The notes under the pieces were generated by a model. The model saw nothing but the letters and a program-made list of their open reading frames with translations. It ran no database searches and was not told where the DNA came from. 22,709 nt of DNA from Chitinophagia bacterium. Lineage in GTDB: Bacteria; Bacteroidota; Bacteroidia; Chitinophagales; Chitinophagaceae. Positions 13,640 through 20,027 of this stretch are shown one piece after another. Both the position numbers and the translations under genes were made by a program. The stretch spans positions 1 through 22,709 of the forward strand of contig RGVM01000005.1 in the NCBI GenBank assembly GCA_010027295.1, in the 5' to 3' direction. Position 1 is the first letter of the stretch; every line of letters begins with the position of its first letter.

Positions 13640-14203
13640 TTGTCTTTTCCCATTTCCAAGCATGGTACGGACTTGACTAGGGTGACATGCCCTATCATCT
13701 CCTATTTTTTATTGGGTCAGCGGGATAAAACGAATGTCTTCGCCCTCTTATCATCTATGGGGCGTACGTTTTGGGGATCGATGTTCGGATTCAGCGTGAT
13801 GACCTTCCGGCTTCTTGACATAACTTTTCTGGTCCTGATGCATTTACTCCCCCTTATGCTGCTCTTCAGAGGCGACGAGGATGTCTCTATAAGGTTCCCC
13901 CTCTCGGCACTGGGCCTCGTGATGGCTGTCAACATCACCTTGAACGTGTTGAGTTACGACAGCGTCAGCATATTCGTCTTCTGTCTGATCTACATGTTTA
14001 CTTATGCCTTCATTTTCACAAGAAGCAACACCTACGCTGCAACATATGCAATTACCTACCTCCTCCTTTTTGCGGCATACGATAACGCCCATCTATCAGA
14101 ACGGGCTGGAATATCATCTCAGAGACCGTTGAGAGTACTCGACGGGTTATGTGGCAACGACCAGCCTAAGGGGCTCACATGCCCCGGACATCCTAATCAA
14201 TAG
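13640..14203 (+). CDS. Hypothetical integral membrane protein (uncertain start and 3' end)
   Basis: The open frame runs from a TTG at 13640; a GTG at 13682 and the first ATG at 13757 are other possible starts. Residues about 15-150 hold four to five hydrophobic segments (for example MTFRLLDITFLVLMHLLPLMLLF interrupted by loops, FPLSALGLVMAVNITL, SIFVFCLIYMFTYAFIF, TYAITYLLLFAAY) separated by charged turns, a coherent membrane topology. After about 14100 the sequence turns polar and unstructured, as if the true end or a frameshift lies there. I do not recognise the family. It may be the first part of a membrane gene now split from the ORFs at 14290-14924. Confidence 0.4.
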   Translation: MSFPISKHGTDLTRVTCPIISYFLLGQRDKTNVFALLSSMGRTFWGSMFGFSVMTFRLLDITFLVLMHLLPLMLLFRGDEDVSIRFPLSALGLVMAVNITLNVLSYDSVSIFVFCLIYMFTYAFIFTRSNTYAATYAITYLLLFAAYDNAHLSERAGISSQRPLRVLDGLCGNDQPKGLTCPGHPNQ

Positions 14204-14289
14204 TACATGGTACGTGACCTGTATCCATTCTTCGTCATGACTCTGTCATCGGGCTCATCCTCCTTATCTGGAAGACAGTCGCAGGCAGG

Positions 14290-14718
14290 ATGCCGGAACT
14301 TCCCATACAGTGCAACCTCGCCGTCGGCCTCGTATTCGCATGGCTGACAAGTGACGCCAAACTCCTGAAGACGATGGCCATGGCCCTGCACTTGCTACTG
14401 TCTGGCAGATGGATCACGCAACGGCACCGCTACGGTTATTACATACTGCTCGGCGCCTTACAGGTTTTCTTCACTGTGGTGTTCAACGTCAACGCGTGGG
14501 ATCCCACCTTCCGCAGGAAATACCTGCTGCTAGTCACATCGGCGTCGCTCGTGACCACTATCGGCTGCCTAATCGCCTCCTGGAGGCGCGGTGACAGGCT
14601 GACAGCCCTTTTCTGCGTTTTCAGCGTGCTGCTCGCGGTCTTATGCCCCTCGGCTCCAATACCGGACTCTGGAAATCTGCACACATTTCCAGCTTCTCAG
14701 CACCGGTCCTATTCCTGA
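14290..14718 (+). CDS. Hypothetical membrane protein
   Basis: 142 residues from ATG 14290; the same frame is open back to 14218 with another hydrophobic stretch (VIGLILLIWKTVAG), so the start is unsure. Three further hydrophobic helices follow, with basic loops between them (RWITQRHRYGYYILLGALQ, FRRKYLLLVTSASLV, WRRGDRLTALF), giving a regular inside-positive pattern. The last 20 residues are polar. Its TGA (14716-14718) overlaps the ATG of the next frame (14718), which suggests translational coupling. No family was recognised. Confidence 0.4.
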   Translation: MPELPIQCNLAVGLVFAWLTSDAKLLKTMAMALHLLLSGRWITQRHRYGYYILLGALQVFFTVVFNVNAWDPTFRRKYLLLVTSASLVTTIGCLIASWRRGDRLTALFCVFSVLLAVLCPSAPIPDSGNLHTFPASQHRSYS

Positions 14719-14924
14719 TGGTTCATCTCATGGCCCTGCCCGGCACCCGGTTGCTCATGACTTCCTTGGCTGTCTGCATGACAGTCCTTTCGCTCATTCA
14801 CAAGACGGTCTTGGGAAAGACCTTCATGGAGGGAAGGATGCGTGAATTGACCGTACAGTTCGACGAGCCCCTCATCCGCGGCATGGCACCACACCTGTTC
14901 GAAAACAGAATCTCTATGGGATGA
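14718..14924 (+). CDS. Small hypothetical protein with one membrane segment
   Basis: 68 residues from ATG 14718 (MVHLMALPGTRLLMTSLAVC). A longer version from ATG 14643 would overlap the previous gene by 76 bases. One hydrophobic N-terminal segment precedes a charged tail (GKTFMEGRMRELTVQFDEPL). The start overlaps the preceding stop (TGATG), and the stop overlaps the next start (ATGA at 14921-14924). Such overlaps favour a real operon, but a frameshifted single gene would look similar. Unrecognised. Confidence 0.35.
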   Translation: MVHLMALPGTRLLMTSLAVCMTVLSLIHKTVLGKTFMEGRMRELTVQFDEPLIRGMAPHLFENRISMG

Positions 14925-15250
14925 GAAGAGTCATGGACAGTCTGCGTGCCGAGAACAACGGCAGATGGCCCGGTGTGATCGTGGGCCTGGTACAGGTACT
15001 CCAGTACCTCTCTGGTCAGCCTGAGCCCATCCATTACGGCTCCTGGCTGACGGACCAATCCGAGTACAAGGCGCAGGAACTTGCCGGATACATGAAGTCT
15101 GACAGTGCCCTTGTACATGTGATCCTGACCTTCTACTATCCGGATGATCCGAGGAAAAATCCTGCGAAAATGTTCATCTACAGAACGCTCCTCGATATGG
15201 GCTCCAGGGTCAGCCGGGAGGGCGTAAACTGTCAGGTATTGTCCCGGTAA
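14921..15250 (+). CDS. Small hypothetical soluble protein
   Basis: 109 residues beginning MRRVMDSLRAENNGRWPG, with no membrane segment and no recognised motif. The start overlaps the previous stop by four bases (ATGA), the commonest coupling in bacterial operons. The C-terminal part is Lys/Arg/Asp-rich (FYYPDDPRKNPAKMF). Probably co-expressed with the membrane ORFs before it. Function unknown. Confidence 0.4.
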   Translation: MRRVMDSLRAENNGRWPGVIVGLVQVLQYLSGQPEPIHYGSWLTDQSEYKAQELAGYMKSDSALVHVILTFYYPDDPRKNPAKMFIYRTLLDMGSRVSREGVNCQVLSR

Positions 15251-15818: not shown

Positions 15819-15878
15819 CTCTGGGTACTGTTTGATGCATGGCTGATGAATGCCAAAGATGCATTGTGGATTTTACGA

Positions 15879-15905
15879 TTGAAAATGGGGAAAACCGTAC
15901 ATTTG
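15879..15905 (+). promoter_or_regulatory. Promoter of the LytM-CapA operon
   Basis: TACATTTG at 15898-15905 is an exact match to the Bacteroidota -7 element TAnnTTTG. A TTG at 15879-15881 lies 16 bp upstream. It predicts a transcript start near 15911, which is inside the longest open frame of the next gene and so argues for a later translation start. Confidence 0.5.
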
Positions 15906-15934
15906 GAAAATTTTCTCGGAAAAACAATATTCCG

Positions 15935-16957
15935 GTGCGCGTTACGTTGCCTGCCATCCTCTTCTATGCATTACAGCTGACCCTTGCTCCGCGGCTAGGG
16001 CTCGCCGCCTTACGCGATCCAGCCAGCAACGACACCACCCTCAAGGCGCCCAGGCCCAAGTCATTCAGCATCAACGACTCCTCGCGTTTCGAAGCCTGGG
16101 ATCTGATTCTTAACCATCCCGTCTTCAACGAATGCTGGGACAACACCGAAACCTTTCCATACGAAAACACCAGGCTCACCGACCTGCCGGAACACATTGA
16201 AATCCCCCTTCTCCGCCAGGGTGAGCGCTTCACCCTGACCTGGTACGGACGGTTGAACTCCCCCTATGGTCCCCGCAAGGGACGTCATCATCATGGCCTC
16301 GACCTGCAGCTGCATACCGGGGACAGGGTATTCGCGGCCTTCGACGGAATCGTGCGTTATGCGAAATACAACCGCTCAGGCTTCGGGAACTGTATTGTCA
16401 TACGACACTACAACGGCCTGGAAACAGTCTACGCCCACCTGAGTAGGATCGAAGTGCCTGTCAACAGCCTGGTACGTAGCGGCGATCCCATCGGCCGGGG
16501 CGGTAACACAGGCAGGTCATTTGGTTCACACCTGCACTTCGAAGTGCGCTTCAAGGACTTTTCGATCGATCCGGAACGACTCATCGACGTCCATTCAGGT
16601 CAATTGAGAATGGACACCCTGCGATTCACCCGCCATTTGCTGGGGGGTCGCCGATACCCGGGGGACTTGCAGGACGGCACGGAATCTACTGACAGCAGCT
16701 TTGCCACATCCGAGTTGGGTGTACCTGTCTTCTTTTCGGAAACAGAGGATGAACCGGAACCCGTCGTGATCCCTGCCAAAACAAAGTCTGTCCCCAAGAG
16801 CAAGGCAAACAGTCCCGCATATTACACGATCCGGAAAGGCGACAACCTGGGGGTCATACAGCGCAGGACAGGAGTACCTCAGTCGCGTCTACGCAGCCTC
16901 AATCCCGGCATGAATGCAAGGAAGTTGCTTCCTGGAAAGAAGCTTCGCATTCGATGA
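15935..16957 (+). CDS. Secreted M23 (LytM) peptidase with C-terminal LysM domain
   Basis: About 340 residues from the GTG at 15935. The frame is open to an ATG at 15839, but those 32 residues are charged, precede a clear signal peptide (PAILFYALQLTLAPRLGLA) and overlap the promoter, so a GTG at 15935 or TTG at 15947 is preferred. Zinc ligands of the LytM domain are His119 and Asp123 (HHHGLDL), His168 (VYAHLS) and His201 in SHLHFE. The LysM domain lies at about 296-340 (YYTIRKGDNLGVIQRRTGVPQSRL...). It is probably a peptidoglycan hydrolase or a cell-division-type LytM regulator bound to the wall through LysM. All ligands are present, so catalysis is possible. It overlaps the CapA-like gene by four bases. 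Confidence 0.88.
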   Translation: MRVTLPAILFYALQLTLAPRLGLAALRDPASNDTTLKAPRPKSFSINDSSRFEAWDLILNHPVFNECWDNTETFPYENTRLTDLPEHIEIPLLRQGERFTLTWYGRLNSPYGPRKGRHHHGLDLQLHTGDRVFAAFDGIVRYAKYNRSGFGNCIVIRHYNGLETVYAHLSRIEVPVNSLVRSGDPIGRGGNTGRSFGSHLHFEVRFKDFSIDPERLIDVHSGQLRMDTLRFTRHLLGGRRYPGDLQDGTESTDSSFATSELGVPVFFSETEDEPEPVVIPAKTKSVPKSKANSPAYYTIRKGDNLGVIQRRTGVPQSRLRSLNPGMNARKLLPGKKLRIR

Positions 16958-18141
16958 GAAACCTCCCAGCCTTTCTTTGGGCAATCCTCTCGACGGCCTT
17001 CGCCCAGCAAAAGCCTACGGGGCCCCTACCCGCTCAACGAACCAGGGATACCGGCGCCCTTTACAGGGCTATCACACGGGAAGTCGACGTGGGCGCTTCG
17101 GAAGATACGGTTCGCATCGCGGTCGTTGGCGACCTCATGTGCCATTCCACCCAGTTCCAGGCTGCCAAGACTGAGAATGGGTATGACTTTCGGCCGGCCT
17201 TCCAGGCGGTGAAACCCTACCTCTCCTCCGCCGATCTGACATTCGGCAACCTCGAGACGGTCACAGCAGGTGCGGTGGAGAAATTCACCGGCTATCCCAC
17301 TTTCAACACCCCCGTCGAATATCTGGACGCCCTGTCGGACGCAGGTTTCGACGTCCTCACGACCGCCAATAACCATTCGCTCGACAGGCGCTTCATCGGA
17401 GTGGAACGTACGATCGAGGCCCTCGAAGCCAGAGGCCTCATGCACACCGGCACGGCCCGGACGGCCGAGGAGAGGGCCCGTCCGCTCATCGTCACCATTA
17501 AAGGGCTTCGATTGGGTATCCTAGCCTACACATATGGTACAAATGGCATCCCCATGCCCCAGGGGAAACCCTTTGCCGTGAACCTGATGGACACCCTCGT
17601 TATGGCTGGGGATATCCGTACCGCACGGGCTGGAGGCGCCGAAGCCATCGCAGTATTCCTGCACTGGGGACTTGAATACGAGCGTCTGCCCAACGCAAGC
17701 CAGAAGGCCGTCGCCGAATTCCTGGCCCGTCAGGAAGTGTCGCTCGTCATGGGGTCGCACTCGCATGTGCTCCAGCCGACCAGCTGGATAGGAGCTCCTG
17801 GCAACGGCAGCTTCGTGATCTACTCCTTGGGCAACTTCTTCTCCGGACAGCGGAGGGCCTATACCGATGCTGGCATTATCCTGCAACTGAGCCTCTTACG
17901 GGACCGCACGACAGGGAAGGTCCGCACCGGCGACGTTCGCTTCATCCCCACATATGTCTCCACCCTGAATGGATACAAGATCCTGCCGGTGGCTGACGCC
18001 CTGGAGAAGGCCGAGGCACTGGAGGCTTCCGCCAGGTCGGCCATAGCCACCGACCTGATCCGGATGAGGGCTGTCTGGTCAGAGACCTGTACACACCTCT
18101 CAGACAGTGCGACAGGCATACTGCCATACCGGGACAGATGA
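16954..18141 (+). CDS. CapA/PgsA-like metallophosphatase, secreted
   Basis: A 395-residue protein of the CapA (poly-gamma-glutamate biosynthesis, PGA_cap) family, with a calcineurin-like phosphoesterase fold. Signal peptide residues 1-17 (MRNLPAFLWAILSTAFA). Motifs in order: VVGDLMCH (metal Asp60), GNLET (Asn99, Glu101), TTANNHSLD (Asn140, His141), FLHWGLEY, GSHSHVLQP and IYSLGNFF. These are the metal-binding and signature residues of the family. In most bacteria without a polyglutamate capsule its true substrate is unknown; the overlap with a LytM peptidase gene (ATGA, 16954-16957) points to a cell-envelope role. There is no CapB or CapC nearby, so capsule synthesis should not be assumed. 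Confidence 0.88.
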   Translation: MRNLPAFLWAILSTAFAQQKPTGPLPAQRTRDTGALYRAITREVDVGASEDTVRIAVVGDLMCHSTQFQAAKTENGYDFRPAFQAVKPYLSSADLTFGNLETVTAGAVEKFTGYPTFNTPVEYLDALSDAGFDVLTTANNHSLDRRFIGVERTIEALEARGLMHTGTARTAEERARPLIVTIKGLRLGILAYTYGTNGIPMPQGKPFAVNLMDTLVMAGDIRTARAGGAEAIAVFLHWGLEYERLPNASQKAVAEFLARQEVSLVMGSHSHVLQPTSWIGAPGNGSFVIYSLGNFFSGQRRAYTDAGIILQLSLLRDRTTGKVRTGDVRFIPTYVSTLNGYKILPVADALEKAEALEASARSAIATDLIRMRAVWSETCTHLSDSATGILPYRDR

Positions 18142-18230: not shown

Positions 18231-18926
18231 TCAGAACCAACGCCTGTCGCTCTCTACGACAAGGTCGGATGAGGCTCGCCGTTCTGGATTCGACTTGGGT
18301 AGAACCTCCTGCACAGGGGCATTATCCGGCACTTGGACAGACGATGCTTCGCCCGTTTGCTGCGAGAGGTCAACCCGCATCATGGCAGGCCTGTTTCCGG
18401 CATCCGCCGCATCTTCCATTCCCCCGTTGGCGACCTTTCGGGCCTTGACTTCCTCCGCCTCTCGCCTGGCCTTCAACGAGTAGATATTGTGCACATTGCT
18501 CCTGCCCTGTTTGATGATCTTCTCCTTCTCCTTGGTGGCGAACTCCGCCATGTCCTCTGGCTTCAGCTTCCTCATGTTCCCGCGGAAGGTCGACTCTTTC
18601 TCCACAAGCACGCTGGAGGCGTGGATATCACCCAGCATGACCGCCGTATCGAACACCTTCACATCCCCCGAGGCATATAGGTTGCCCTCGCAGTATCCGT
18701 AGAGGAGGATATCCTCCGCGAATACATTCCCCTTGATGATGGCATCGGGACCGACGATGATCCTCCGGCACTCGATGATCTGTCCCTCGAACCTCCCGTC
18801 GATGCGCCCGGAACTCGAACGCGCGACCAGGTCGCCGTAGAACTCCATGCCGGTGCTGATGAAAAAATTCTCGGGTGCGACTCTTTCGATGCGGGCGCTC
18901 AGGATACGTTTGAGGAAGGAGGTCAT
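18231..18926 (-). CDS. Bactofilin (polymer-forming cytoskeletal protein)
   Basis: A 231-residue bactofilin. The core at about residues 22-115 is a right-handed beta-helix of short repeated strands: STGMEFYGDLVARSSSGRIDG, FEGQIIECRRIIVGPDAIIKG, VFAEDILLYGYCEGNLYASG and DVKVFDTAVMLGDIHAS. Repeated G-x-I/V turns are diagnostic of the family. The C-terminal half (about 120-231) is charged and low-complexity, probably disordered, and longer than usual. Bactofilins polymerise without nucleotide and place wall enzymes or other proteins at membrane sites. It starts 66 bp downstream of the actin-like gene on the same strand, with no terminator seen between them, so the two are probably co-transcribed. 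A LytM peptidase is close by on the other strand, a partner type seen with bactofilins in other bacteria. Confidence 0.9.
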   Translation of the reverse strand: MTSFLKRILSARIERVAPENFFISTGMEFYGDLVARSSSGRIDGRFEGQIIECRRIIVGPDAIIKGNVFAEDILLYGYCEGNLYASGDVKVFDTAVMLGDIHASSVLVEKESTFRGNMRKLKPEDMAEFATKEKEKIIKQGRSNVHNIYSLKARREAEEVKARKVANGGMEDAADAGNRPAMMRVDLSQQTGEASSVQVPDNAPVQEVLPKSNPERRASSDLVVESDRRWF

Positions 18927-18992: not shown

Positions 18993-20027
18993 TTAGCCGT
19001 TGCGATTGACGGTGACGATTGTCGAGGAGTTGCCGATGTCGAGTCCGATGGAATTGGACACGGAACCGCCGAGGGATGCGGCATGATGGAAATATCCCAC
19101 ACTGGCGACGTTCTGGGGCTCAGACACCACTTCTACGGGTAGGAAGCCGTTGAATTCCTCCTCGAACTGCTCTCTAAGCTCGTTGAACAGGATGCCACCG
19201 CCCACGAGGTAGATGGCCGTGCAACGTTCGAAGTCCTGGTCGGTGAAATGCGAGCGGAAGTTCGGGGAGATGACCTGCTTGTAGTACTGCGTGAGTACTT
19301 CGCGGCGGATATCGCGGAGGTCGATGCGCTTGCGGTGGGCGATCATGAAACCCTTTACGAGCGAGTCATTTAGCTGGAACTCGTTCTTCATGTCGAGGTA
19401 GTGCAGCTTACTGAGCTCGCGCTGGGCGTTGTTGACCACATAGCGCATGCCCCTTGCGCTGAAGCATGTGCGCTGCACCAGTCCGTCGTCGGTCGCCATA
19501 CCACCCTCGGCCGTTCCGTAGCCCAGGCTGATGACGATGAAGTTCCTCGGGTTGCTGTCGGTCACGAGGTTGCCCTTTTTGATGCCGATCACGGCGCCCA
19601 CGATCTCGGGAATGACGTCGAAGCTCTTGAGTTCGATGTTGATGCTGCGGACCCCGCCTTCATGCTTATACGTCTCGTTGTTATAGTCTACCGTGAAGTA
19701 GCGCTGCTCGAGCATGCGTAGCAGGGGCTGGCGGTAGGCGTTATAGGTGGAGTAGGGAAGTCCCAGCGTGATGTTGAAGGGCTTCTCCACGGTCTCCGCG
19801 CAGTTGAGCAGGGCCGACTTGAAGAGGATCTCGAAATCGAGCTGGTCGGGAGCCGCGTTGATCACGCGCTGGGCATCGATACCGTTCTTCTTGGCGAGGT
19901 CTCCCACGAGGTACCACTGACCGTCCACTTTGACCTTCATGCCGGTAAGCAGGGAGGCGGCTGTGTTCTCTGTGTTCCCGTAAGCGGCTTCGAACACGCT
20001 GGGGAAAGAAAAGGAATGCGTTGACAT
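18993..20027 (-). CDS. Actin-like ATPase (ParM/Alp type), apparently circularly permuted
   Basis: 344 residues. Actin-fold motifs are present in an unusual order. The N terminus opens with THSFSFPSVFEAAYGN, and DGQWYLVGDLAKK follows near 35-47; in related proteins (archaeal Ta0583, ALP_N-type ParM) these come after the first hairpin. Phosphate-2 is VISLGYGTAEGG (165-176), with Ser167 where Asp is normal. The adenosine motif is IYLVGGGILF (272-281), then PQNVASVGYFHHA (305-315), which is usually close to the C terminus. Here a further Gly/Ser linker leads to IGLDIGNSSTIVTV (327-340), the phosphate-1 hairpin that belongs at the N terminus. The frame upstream of the ATG has no such motif before its stop near 20133. 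It is followed by bactofilin. Likely role: nucleotide-dependent filament for DNA or envelope positioning; function unproven. Confidence 0.8.
   Translation of the reverse strand: MSTHSFSFPSVFEAAYGNTENTAASLLTGMKVKVDGQWYLVGDLAKKNGIDAQRVINAAPDQLDFEILFKSALLNCAETVEKPFNITLGLPYSTYNAYRQPLLRMLEQRYFTVDYNNETYKHEGGVRSINIELKSFDVIPEIVGAVIGIKKGNLVTDSNPRNFIVISLGYGTAEGGMATDDGLVQRTCFSARGMRYVVNNAQRELSKLHYLDMKNEFQLNDSLVKGFMIAHRKRIDLRDIRREVLTQYYKQVISPNFRSHFTDQDFERCTAIYLVGGGILFNELREQFEEEFNGFLPVEVVSEPQNVASVGYFHHAASLGGSVSNSIGLDIGNSSTIVTVNRNG

Follow-up and report, generated by a model that had tools for sequence, protein, structure and literature searches.

In the actin fold, the N and C termini share one subdomain, and the archaeal actin homologue Ta0583 has its motifs in the standard order. 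No naturally occurring circular permutant of an actin-superfamily protein is known to us, and none was found described in the open-access literature searched. The motifs of the actin-type ATP site are described in PMC1079889. Here we analyzed a stretch of 22,709 nucleotides from a Chitinophagia bacterium (contig RGVM01000005.1, hereafter the window), in which a minus-strand gene encodes an actin-like protein with its phosphate-1 (P1) motif at the C terminus. By every sequence test except the scoring of single phage ParM proteins, this protein is an actin-superfamily member with a real and conserved circular permutation. The best explanation as a whole, to which we assign a probability of about 0.7, is a permuted actin of the ParM/Ta0583 branch that likely forms an ATP-regulated filament beside a bactofilin scaffold. 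This reading draws on the order of the motifs, the gain upon rotation, conservation throughout the family, the actin fold of the predicted model, and linkage to a bactofilin gene.

Motif order and rotation of the actin-like protein

The gene and the motifs of its product are arranged as follows, from the N terminus to the C terminus.

18993..20027, minus strand: circularly permuted actin-like protein, presumed ATPase; 344 aa, ATG start
19986..20018, minus strand: new N terminus HSFSFPSVFEA (residues 4-14), the post-P1 segment of standard proteins by phage ParM alignment and ALP_N rotation
19605..19607, minus strand: Glu141, E in 29/29 members, aligned with the Glu of MreB HEP
19506..19529, minus strand: phosphate-2 motif SLGYGTAE (residues 167-174), aligned to MreB DIGGGTT, with Ser replacing the first Asp of D-x-G-x-G-T
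19194..19208, minus strand: adenosine motif LVGGG (residues 274-278), GGG invariant, aligned with MreB LTGGG
19050..19088, minus strand: linker (residues 314-326) between the final helix of a standard-order chain and the relocated hairpin, near-fixed in length and variable in sequence
19014..19049, minus strand: P1 hairpin at the C terminus (residues 327-338, IGLDIGNSSTIV), D/G/N/T invariant in 29/29 members, aligned with MreB 8-26

An earlier reading made from the sequence alone had proposed a permuted actin-like protein with P1 at the C terminus, and its residue numbers for IGLDIGNSST (327-336) and LVGGG (274-278) were verified; VASVGYFHHA, which it also named, lies at 307-316. It did not state the strand, which is the minus strand. 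As it had also stated, the upstream in-frame sequence holds no such motif: D-x-G was absent from the 35 open codons before the ATG. The Pfam profile ALP_N matched the window protein with 50.8 bits (E 2.7e-13; cut-off 26.3). Profile positions 18-147 of 148 were aligned to residues 5-143, and the first 17 positions were unmatched in the natural order. The MreB_Mbl profile reached 11 bits, below its cut-off of 27.

Relatives were searched for at a threshold of E 1e-3, and the window's own genome was counted in every tally. A single-sequence search matched 8 of 40 genomes, including one relic (G007) and one false match (G017), which was rejected as a relative because the frame is, by eye, a large ferredoxin-type oxidoreductase. 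Profile searches matched 9 of 41 genus genomes, 23 of 395 phylum genomes, and 5 of 395 class genomes, and the family totals 36 intact genes in 34 genomes. All 36 sequences were inspected; each carries D-[ILM]-G-N near the C terminus and none has an N-terminal P1 copy, so the permutation is conserved among homologues. In a pattern scan of 31 members, the sole additional D-x-G-x-x-x-T was the one at residue 259 of three near-identical members. In an alignment of 29 members (A3), D330, G332, N333, and T336 were invariant, and the mean frequency of the commonest residue was 0.72 in the P1 segment (327-338) versus 0.36 in the linker (314-326). The distance from a conserved GY/GF to the P1 glycine was 17-19 residues in 31/31 members. 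The Gly/Ser linker claimed earlier is found among the window's close relatives; family-wide, the linker sequence varies. ALP_N matched 26 of the 29 members (E up to 1). When 385 phylum genomes were searched with this profile, 13 places in 12 genomes were matched, all at permuted genes already found and all beginning at profile position 15-21; no standard-order ALP_N protein was detected in this sample.

Placing the hairpin first raised the ALP_N score of the window protein from 50.8 to 62.7 bits, and the match then started at profile position 1. The score rose in all four pairs of natural and rotated sequences, which were compared without a scrambled-hairpin control (the others from 53.6 to 64.4, 37.0 to 46.2, and 40.7 to 44.9). 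We also aligned the 29-row family profile with a profile of 27 MreB proteins, two of 29 loci having been excluded because the frame lacked the selection motif. In the natural order, the global alignment covered 28 columns, with the C terminus of the family paired with the N terminus of MreB; after rotation, it covered 285 columns with an E value of 4.8e-9. A second local hit in the natural order joined family columns 318-336 to MreB 8-26, that is, the two P1 hairpins. The family was then rotated at 38 cut points and scored against MreB and against five standard ParM proteins. Against MreB, the maximum was 48.9 at a cut 30 columns from the end, compared with 28.2 in the natural order; cuts of 17-30 columns gave 42.9-48.9, a cut of 39 gave 47.9, and the remainder gave at most 40.2. 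Against ParM, the maximum was 93.1 at a cut of 23 columns, with 325 columns aligned to template residues 1-339, while the natural order scored 90.2 and left template residues 1-19 uncovered. When the 27 MreB proteins were scored singly with a hidden Markov model (HMM), the mean was 18.7 in the natural order, 19.9 after rotation (25/27 higher), and 17.0 with scrambled hairpins.

In the phage ParM alignment, the permuted proteins have no N-terminal hairpin and start at the strand following it. Together with the ALP_N rotation, this agrees with the earlier claim that the N terminus begins after the usual hairpin. With another set of rows, MAFFT misaligned the N-terminal hairpin of standard ParM onto the permuted N terminus. 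A profile search of the PDB matched pCBH ParM (6ixw; E 3.4e-8) from chain residue 27, and with nine sequences the rotated query gave 4.7e-9 from residue 10 versus 2.7e-8 from residue 27 for the unrotated one. The check by rotated sequence was favorable with the ALP_N, MreB, and ParM profiles, the one weak result being the flat scores of single phage ParM proteins given below.

The downstream bactofilin and its aromatic end

The gene downstream of the actin gene in the window encodes a bactofilin, which matched PF04519 with 68.5 bits (cut-off 27.9).

18231..18926, minus strand: bactofilin, 231 aa, downstream of the actin gene (PF04519 match)
18234..18257, minus strand: aromatic C-terminal tail of the bactofilin, ..VESDRRWF, one of the W/F ends of adjacent bactofilins

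A same-strand downstream bactofilin was present in 25 of 33 loci with an intact actin gene, and also in a 34th locus (G053); this count omits two of the 36 actin genes (G068 and G186), which are near-identical to G089. The bactofilin search model was built from 14 of the neighbors themselves. As an independent check, PF04519 scored above its cut-off at 13 such places in the 18 genomes searched. Under a first-ATG rule, 4 of the 25 rows have a bactofilin start that touches the actin stop or overlaps with it. At L078, L079, and L081, a TPR-like gene stands between the two, in a peptidase/bactofilin/ATP synthase-like cluster (names given by eye). No downstream bactofilin was found at eight loci (L068, L069, L071, L073, L076, and L084-L086). 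At the last three of these, the actin itself has a C-terminal extension of approximately 90 residues ending in GMW or GTW.

L084:3847-5142: extended permuted actin with a GMW/GTW end
L085:2029-3387: extended permuted actin with a GMW/GTW end
L086:8946-10250: extended permuted actin with a GMW/GTW end

A terminal W or F was found in 21 of 22 complete, immediately adjacent bactofilins (G053 included), from 7 genera in 7 families; the adjacent bactofilin of L002 runs off its contig and was left out of this set. Of the bactofilins found elsewhere in these genomes or in sister genomes, 0/36 ended in W and 1/36 in F. Applied to an earlier count (20/22, with the cut L002 included, versus 1/18), a Fisher test gave 4e-8, a figure that is only indicative because the tail genes are related. 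In PMC12448750, bactofilins are described as assembling independently of nucleotide, binding membranes, and recruiting clients; their C-terminal tails are typically poorly conserved, and in Myxococcus the tail of BacP binds PadC. Because tails are usually poorly conserved and the BacP tail has a binding partner, the conserved aromatic end is best read, by analogy, as a client-binding peptide, and the permuted actin may be its client.

Two genomes of one genus (G202 and G250) each contain two permuted actins (L074, L075, L091, and L092), each followed by its own Trp-ended bactofilin. The bactofilin at L003 (L003:7130-9148) has more than 650 residues and an acidic low-complexity extension. In G007, a relic on contig C3 (L010:1465-1593) retains the last ~30 actin residues between dnaA and a bactofilin. 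Elsewhere in the window, an M23 peptidase gene with LysM (15839-16957) and a capsule-type PGA_cap gene (16954-18141) overlap each other in convergent orientation to the bactofilin gene, and four consecutive short open reading frames on the plus strand (13640-15250), the first without a Pfam match, resemble a decayed membrane-protein gene.

Predicted structure, mechanism, and alternatives

The predicted model of the window protein is a two-domain actin fold. Its input rows were the window protein with three close relatives, plus four viral ParM proteins of standard order; the N-terminal hairpins of these four were trimmed because MAFFT had placed them on the permuted N terminus. A first model, from the window protein and the three close relatives only, was set aside with a predicted local distance difference test (pLDDT) score of 37. 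The actin fold expected by the sequence-only reading was thus recovered; the aligned range ends at residue 317-324, short of residues 327-340, which that reading had assigned to subdomain IA.

We propose that the P1 hairpin (beta-1/beta-2) was relocated from the N to the C terminus and attached to the old C-terminal helix via the linker of near-fixed length, the new N terminus falling between old beta-2 and beta-3. The hairpin would fold back into its own subdomain IA and, coming from the C-terminal side, close the ATP pocket of the chain that carries it; because it is synthesized last, the pocket could close only after translation ends. The permuted actin is predicted to bind and hydrolyze ATP, and ATP would drive filament assembly. 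Bactofilin would be a membrane-attached scaffold linked through its tail. The docking peptide would be the aromatic tail, which belongs to the adjacent bactofilin or, in one family, to the actin. The filaments would serve the envelope or cytoskeleton beside the membrane-bound bactofilin, not DNA segregation. A more specific version is put forward only tentatively: an ATP-regulated co-cytoskeleton with a dedicated bactofilin, in which the P1 hairpin is a mobile latch on its own or a neighboring site, the tail docks on the actin, and one family has fused the tail to the actin.

Several results weigh against a permuted, ATP-regulated actin paired with bactofilin. In the model, the second strand of the hairpin and most of residues 1-66 have a pLDDT below 50, and the placement of the hairpin (327-340) in subdomain IA, which sequence rotation supports, is not visible. 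Local alignment scores with MreB are equal in the natural and rotated orders (46.4 and 46.5). The gain against ParM is small, and an unrelated cut 36 columns from the N end gave 91.1, albeit with fewer columns (273 versus 325); with so small a margin, full coverage of the template is the stronger point. The HMM scores of two single phage ParM proteins were nearly flat on rotation (37.1 to 38.1 and 41.5 to 41.8 bits), no better than the scrambled-hairpin means (37.9 and 41.8). Single-protein scoring is too weak to reveal the rotation, which profile-profile alignment did reveal. At the neighboring gene, L078, L079, and L081 combine the intervening gene with a non-aromatic bactofilin end, and L068, L069, L071, L073, and L076 have neither an adjacent bactofilin nor an aromatic tail. 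The adjacent bactofilin of L003 ends in K, 22 residues beyond HWF. That of G007 ends in KKWKKL, with a non-aromatic final residue, and may be shortened or decaying, its similarity continuing past the TAA. The tail-bearing genes are related and come from 7 genera. Finally, ATP binding, polymerization, and tail binding are functions predicted from sequence.

Strand exchange, in which the C-terminal hairpin fills the nucleotide site of the next subunit and couples ATP binding to polymerization, is unlikely. The hairpin stands at the chain end on a linker of near-fixed length, and a terminal element may be easier to donate than an internal one; however, both actin-fold termini lie in the same subdomain, so a monomer can close its own site with a short linker, and no result points to exchange.

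A chromosomal ParM-like system for DNA segregation would be consistent with the nearest profiles and structures, which are ALP_N, phage partition proteins (phrog_691, matched by 25/29 members), and ParM. It would also fit the dnaA gene that adjoins in the window and in G007, and the match of L022 to standard phage ParM (best 3e-7, tblastn). This role is nevertheless quite unlikely: bactofilin is the common downstream gene, no dnaA cluster appears among the other loci listed, and the actin gene is lacking in 19 of 24 genus genomes of at least 90% completeness and at most 5% contamination. Moreover, the window protein matched neither phages nor plasmids at E 1e-5. L039 had no plasmid matches, and L028 had no phage matches. 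A search of viral contigs with the window protein, family profile A3, and a phage ParM returned no matches from any query. A match of L022 to Alicyclobacillus phage KKP_3916 (tblastn, E 3e-7) reached the C-terminal hairpin, but the phage protein is a ParM of standard order and the extension is due to chance.

At the nucleotide site, neither Glu141, which we take to correspond to the catalytic Glu of MreB, nor the adenosine-motif GGG varies among the 29 aligned members. MreB has Asp at the first phosphate-2 position, but none of the 29 does: 27 have Ser, one has Asn, and one has Gly. Given the usual roles of these residues, the pocket appears to keep P1 and Glu with one carboxylate fewer. The missing Asp suggests slow or altered hydrolysis, which would make filaments stable. 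Its loss would also suit a degenerate actin that has lost P1 and whose D-x-G-N-x-x-T arose convergently as a C-terminal tail serving another purpose, such as partner binding, as would the hairpin's absence from view in the model and the flat phage ParM scores. Such degeneration is very improbable, as the C-terminal segment pairs with the P1 hairpin of MreB in the alignment (318-336 to 8-26) and restores ALP_N positions 1-17, and the P1 residues and Glu141 do not vary.

Although the window's genome is fragmented (923 contigs), an artefact of assembly or gene calling in one genome is already refuted by the same motif order in 36/36 genes from 34 genomes and by few amino-acid versus many silent changes relative to three close relatives, with proportions of nonsynonymous (pN) and synonymous (pS) differences of 0.08-0.11 and 0.67-0.87 in the body and, with the same trend, 0.07-0.14 and 0.65-0.87 in the 13-codon hairpin, synonymous divergence (dS) being near or beyond saturation.

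Significance and comparison with known systems

New here are the bactofilin linkage, the aromatic ends, the Trp-ended actin tails, and the absence of the phosphate-2 Asp. If the permuted-actin reading is true, neither folding nor polymerization dictates the order of the nucleotide motifs, and the family offers a natural test of which terminus matters for filament contacts; it would also explain why P1-first searches would miss these proteins. The pairing of actin and bactofilin genes in several bacterial families suggests an unrecognized two-part cytoskeleton, and the link, if true, would to our knowledge be the first sign of a dedicated actin-bactofilin pair.

By sequence (6ixw) and by fold, ParM/ALP_N proteins are the best solved relatives of the permuted actin. 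This family, which includes pCBH ParM, Dh-cParM1, and phage partition proteins, shares with it the ALP_N profile, the actin fold, the adenosine motif, and overall length, whereas the permuted actin has a C-terminal P1, no phosphate-2 Asp, and a bactofilin neighbor. Ta0583 differs from the bacterial permuted actin in being archaeal and in its standard motif order. MreB resembles the permuted protein over 285 profile columns once rotated and has the same P1 spacing (D-x-G-x-x-x-T), but it is encoded by a separate standard-order gene in the same genome (G000 C143). The downstream gene belongs to the bactofilins (BacA, CcmA; PF04519), from which the actin-adjacent copies differ by their aromatic C-terminal residue.
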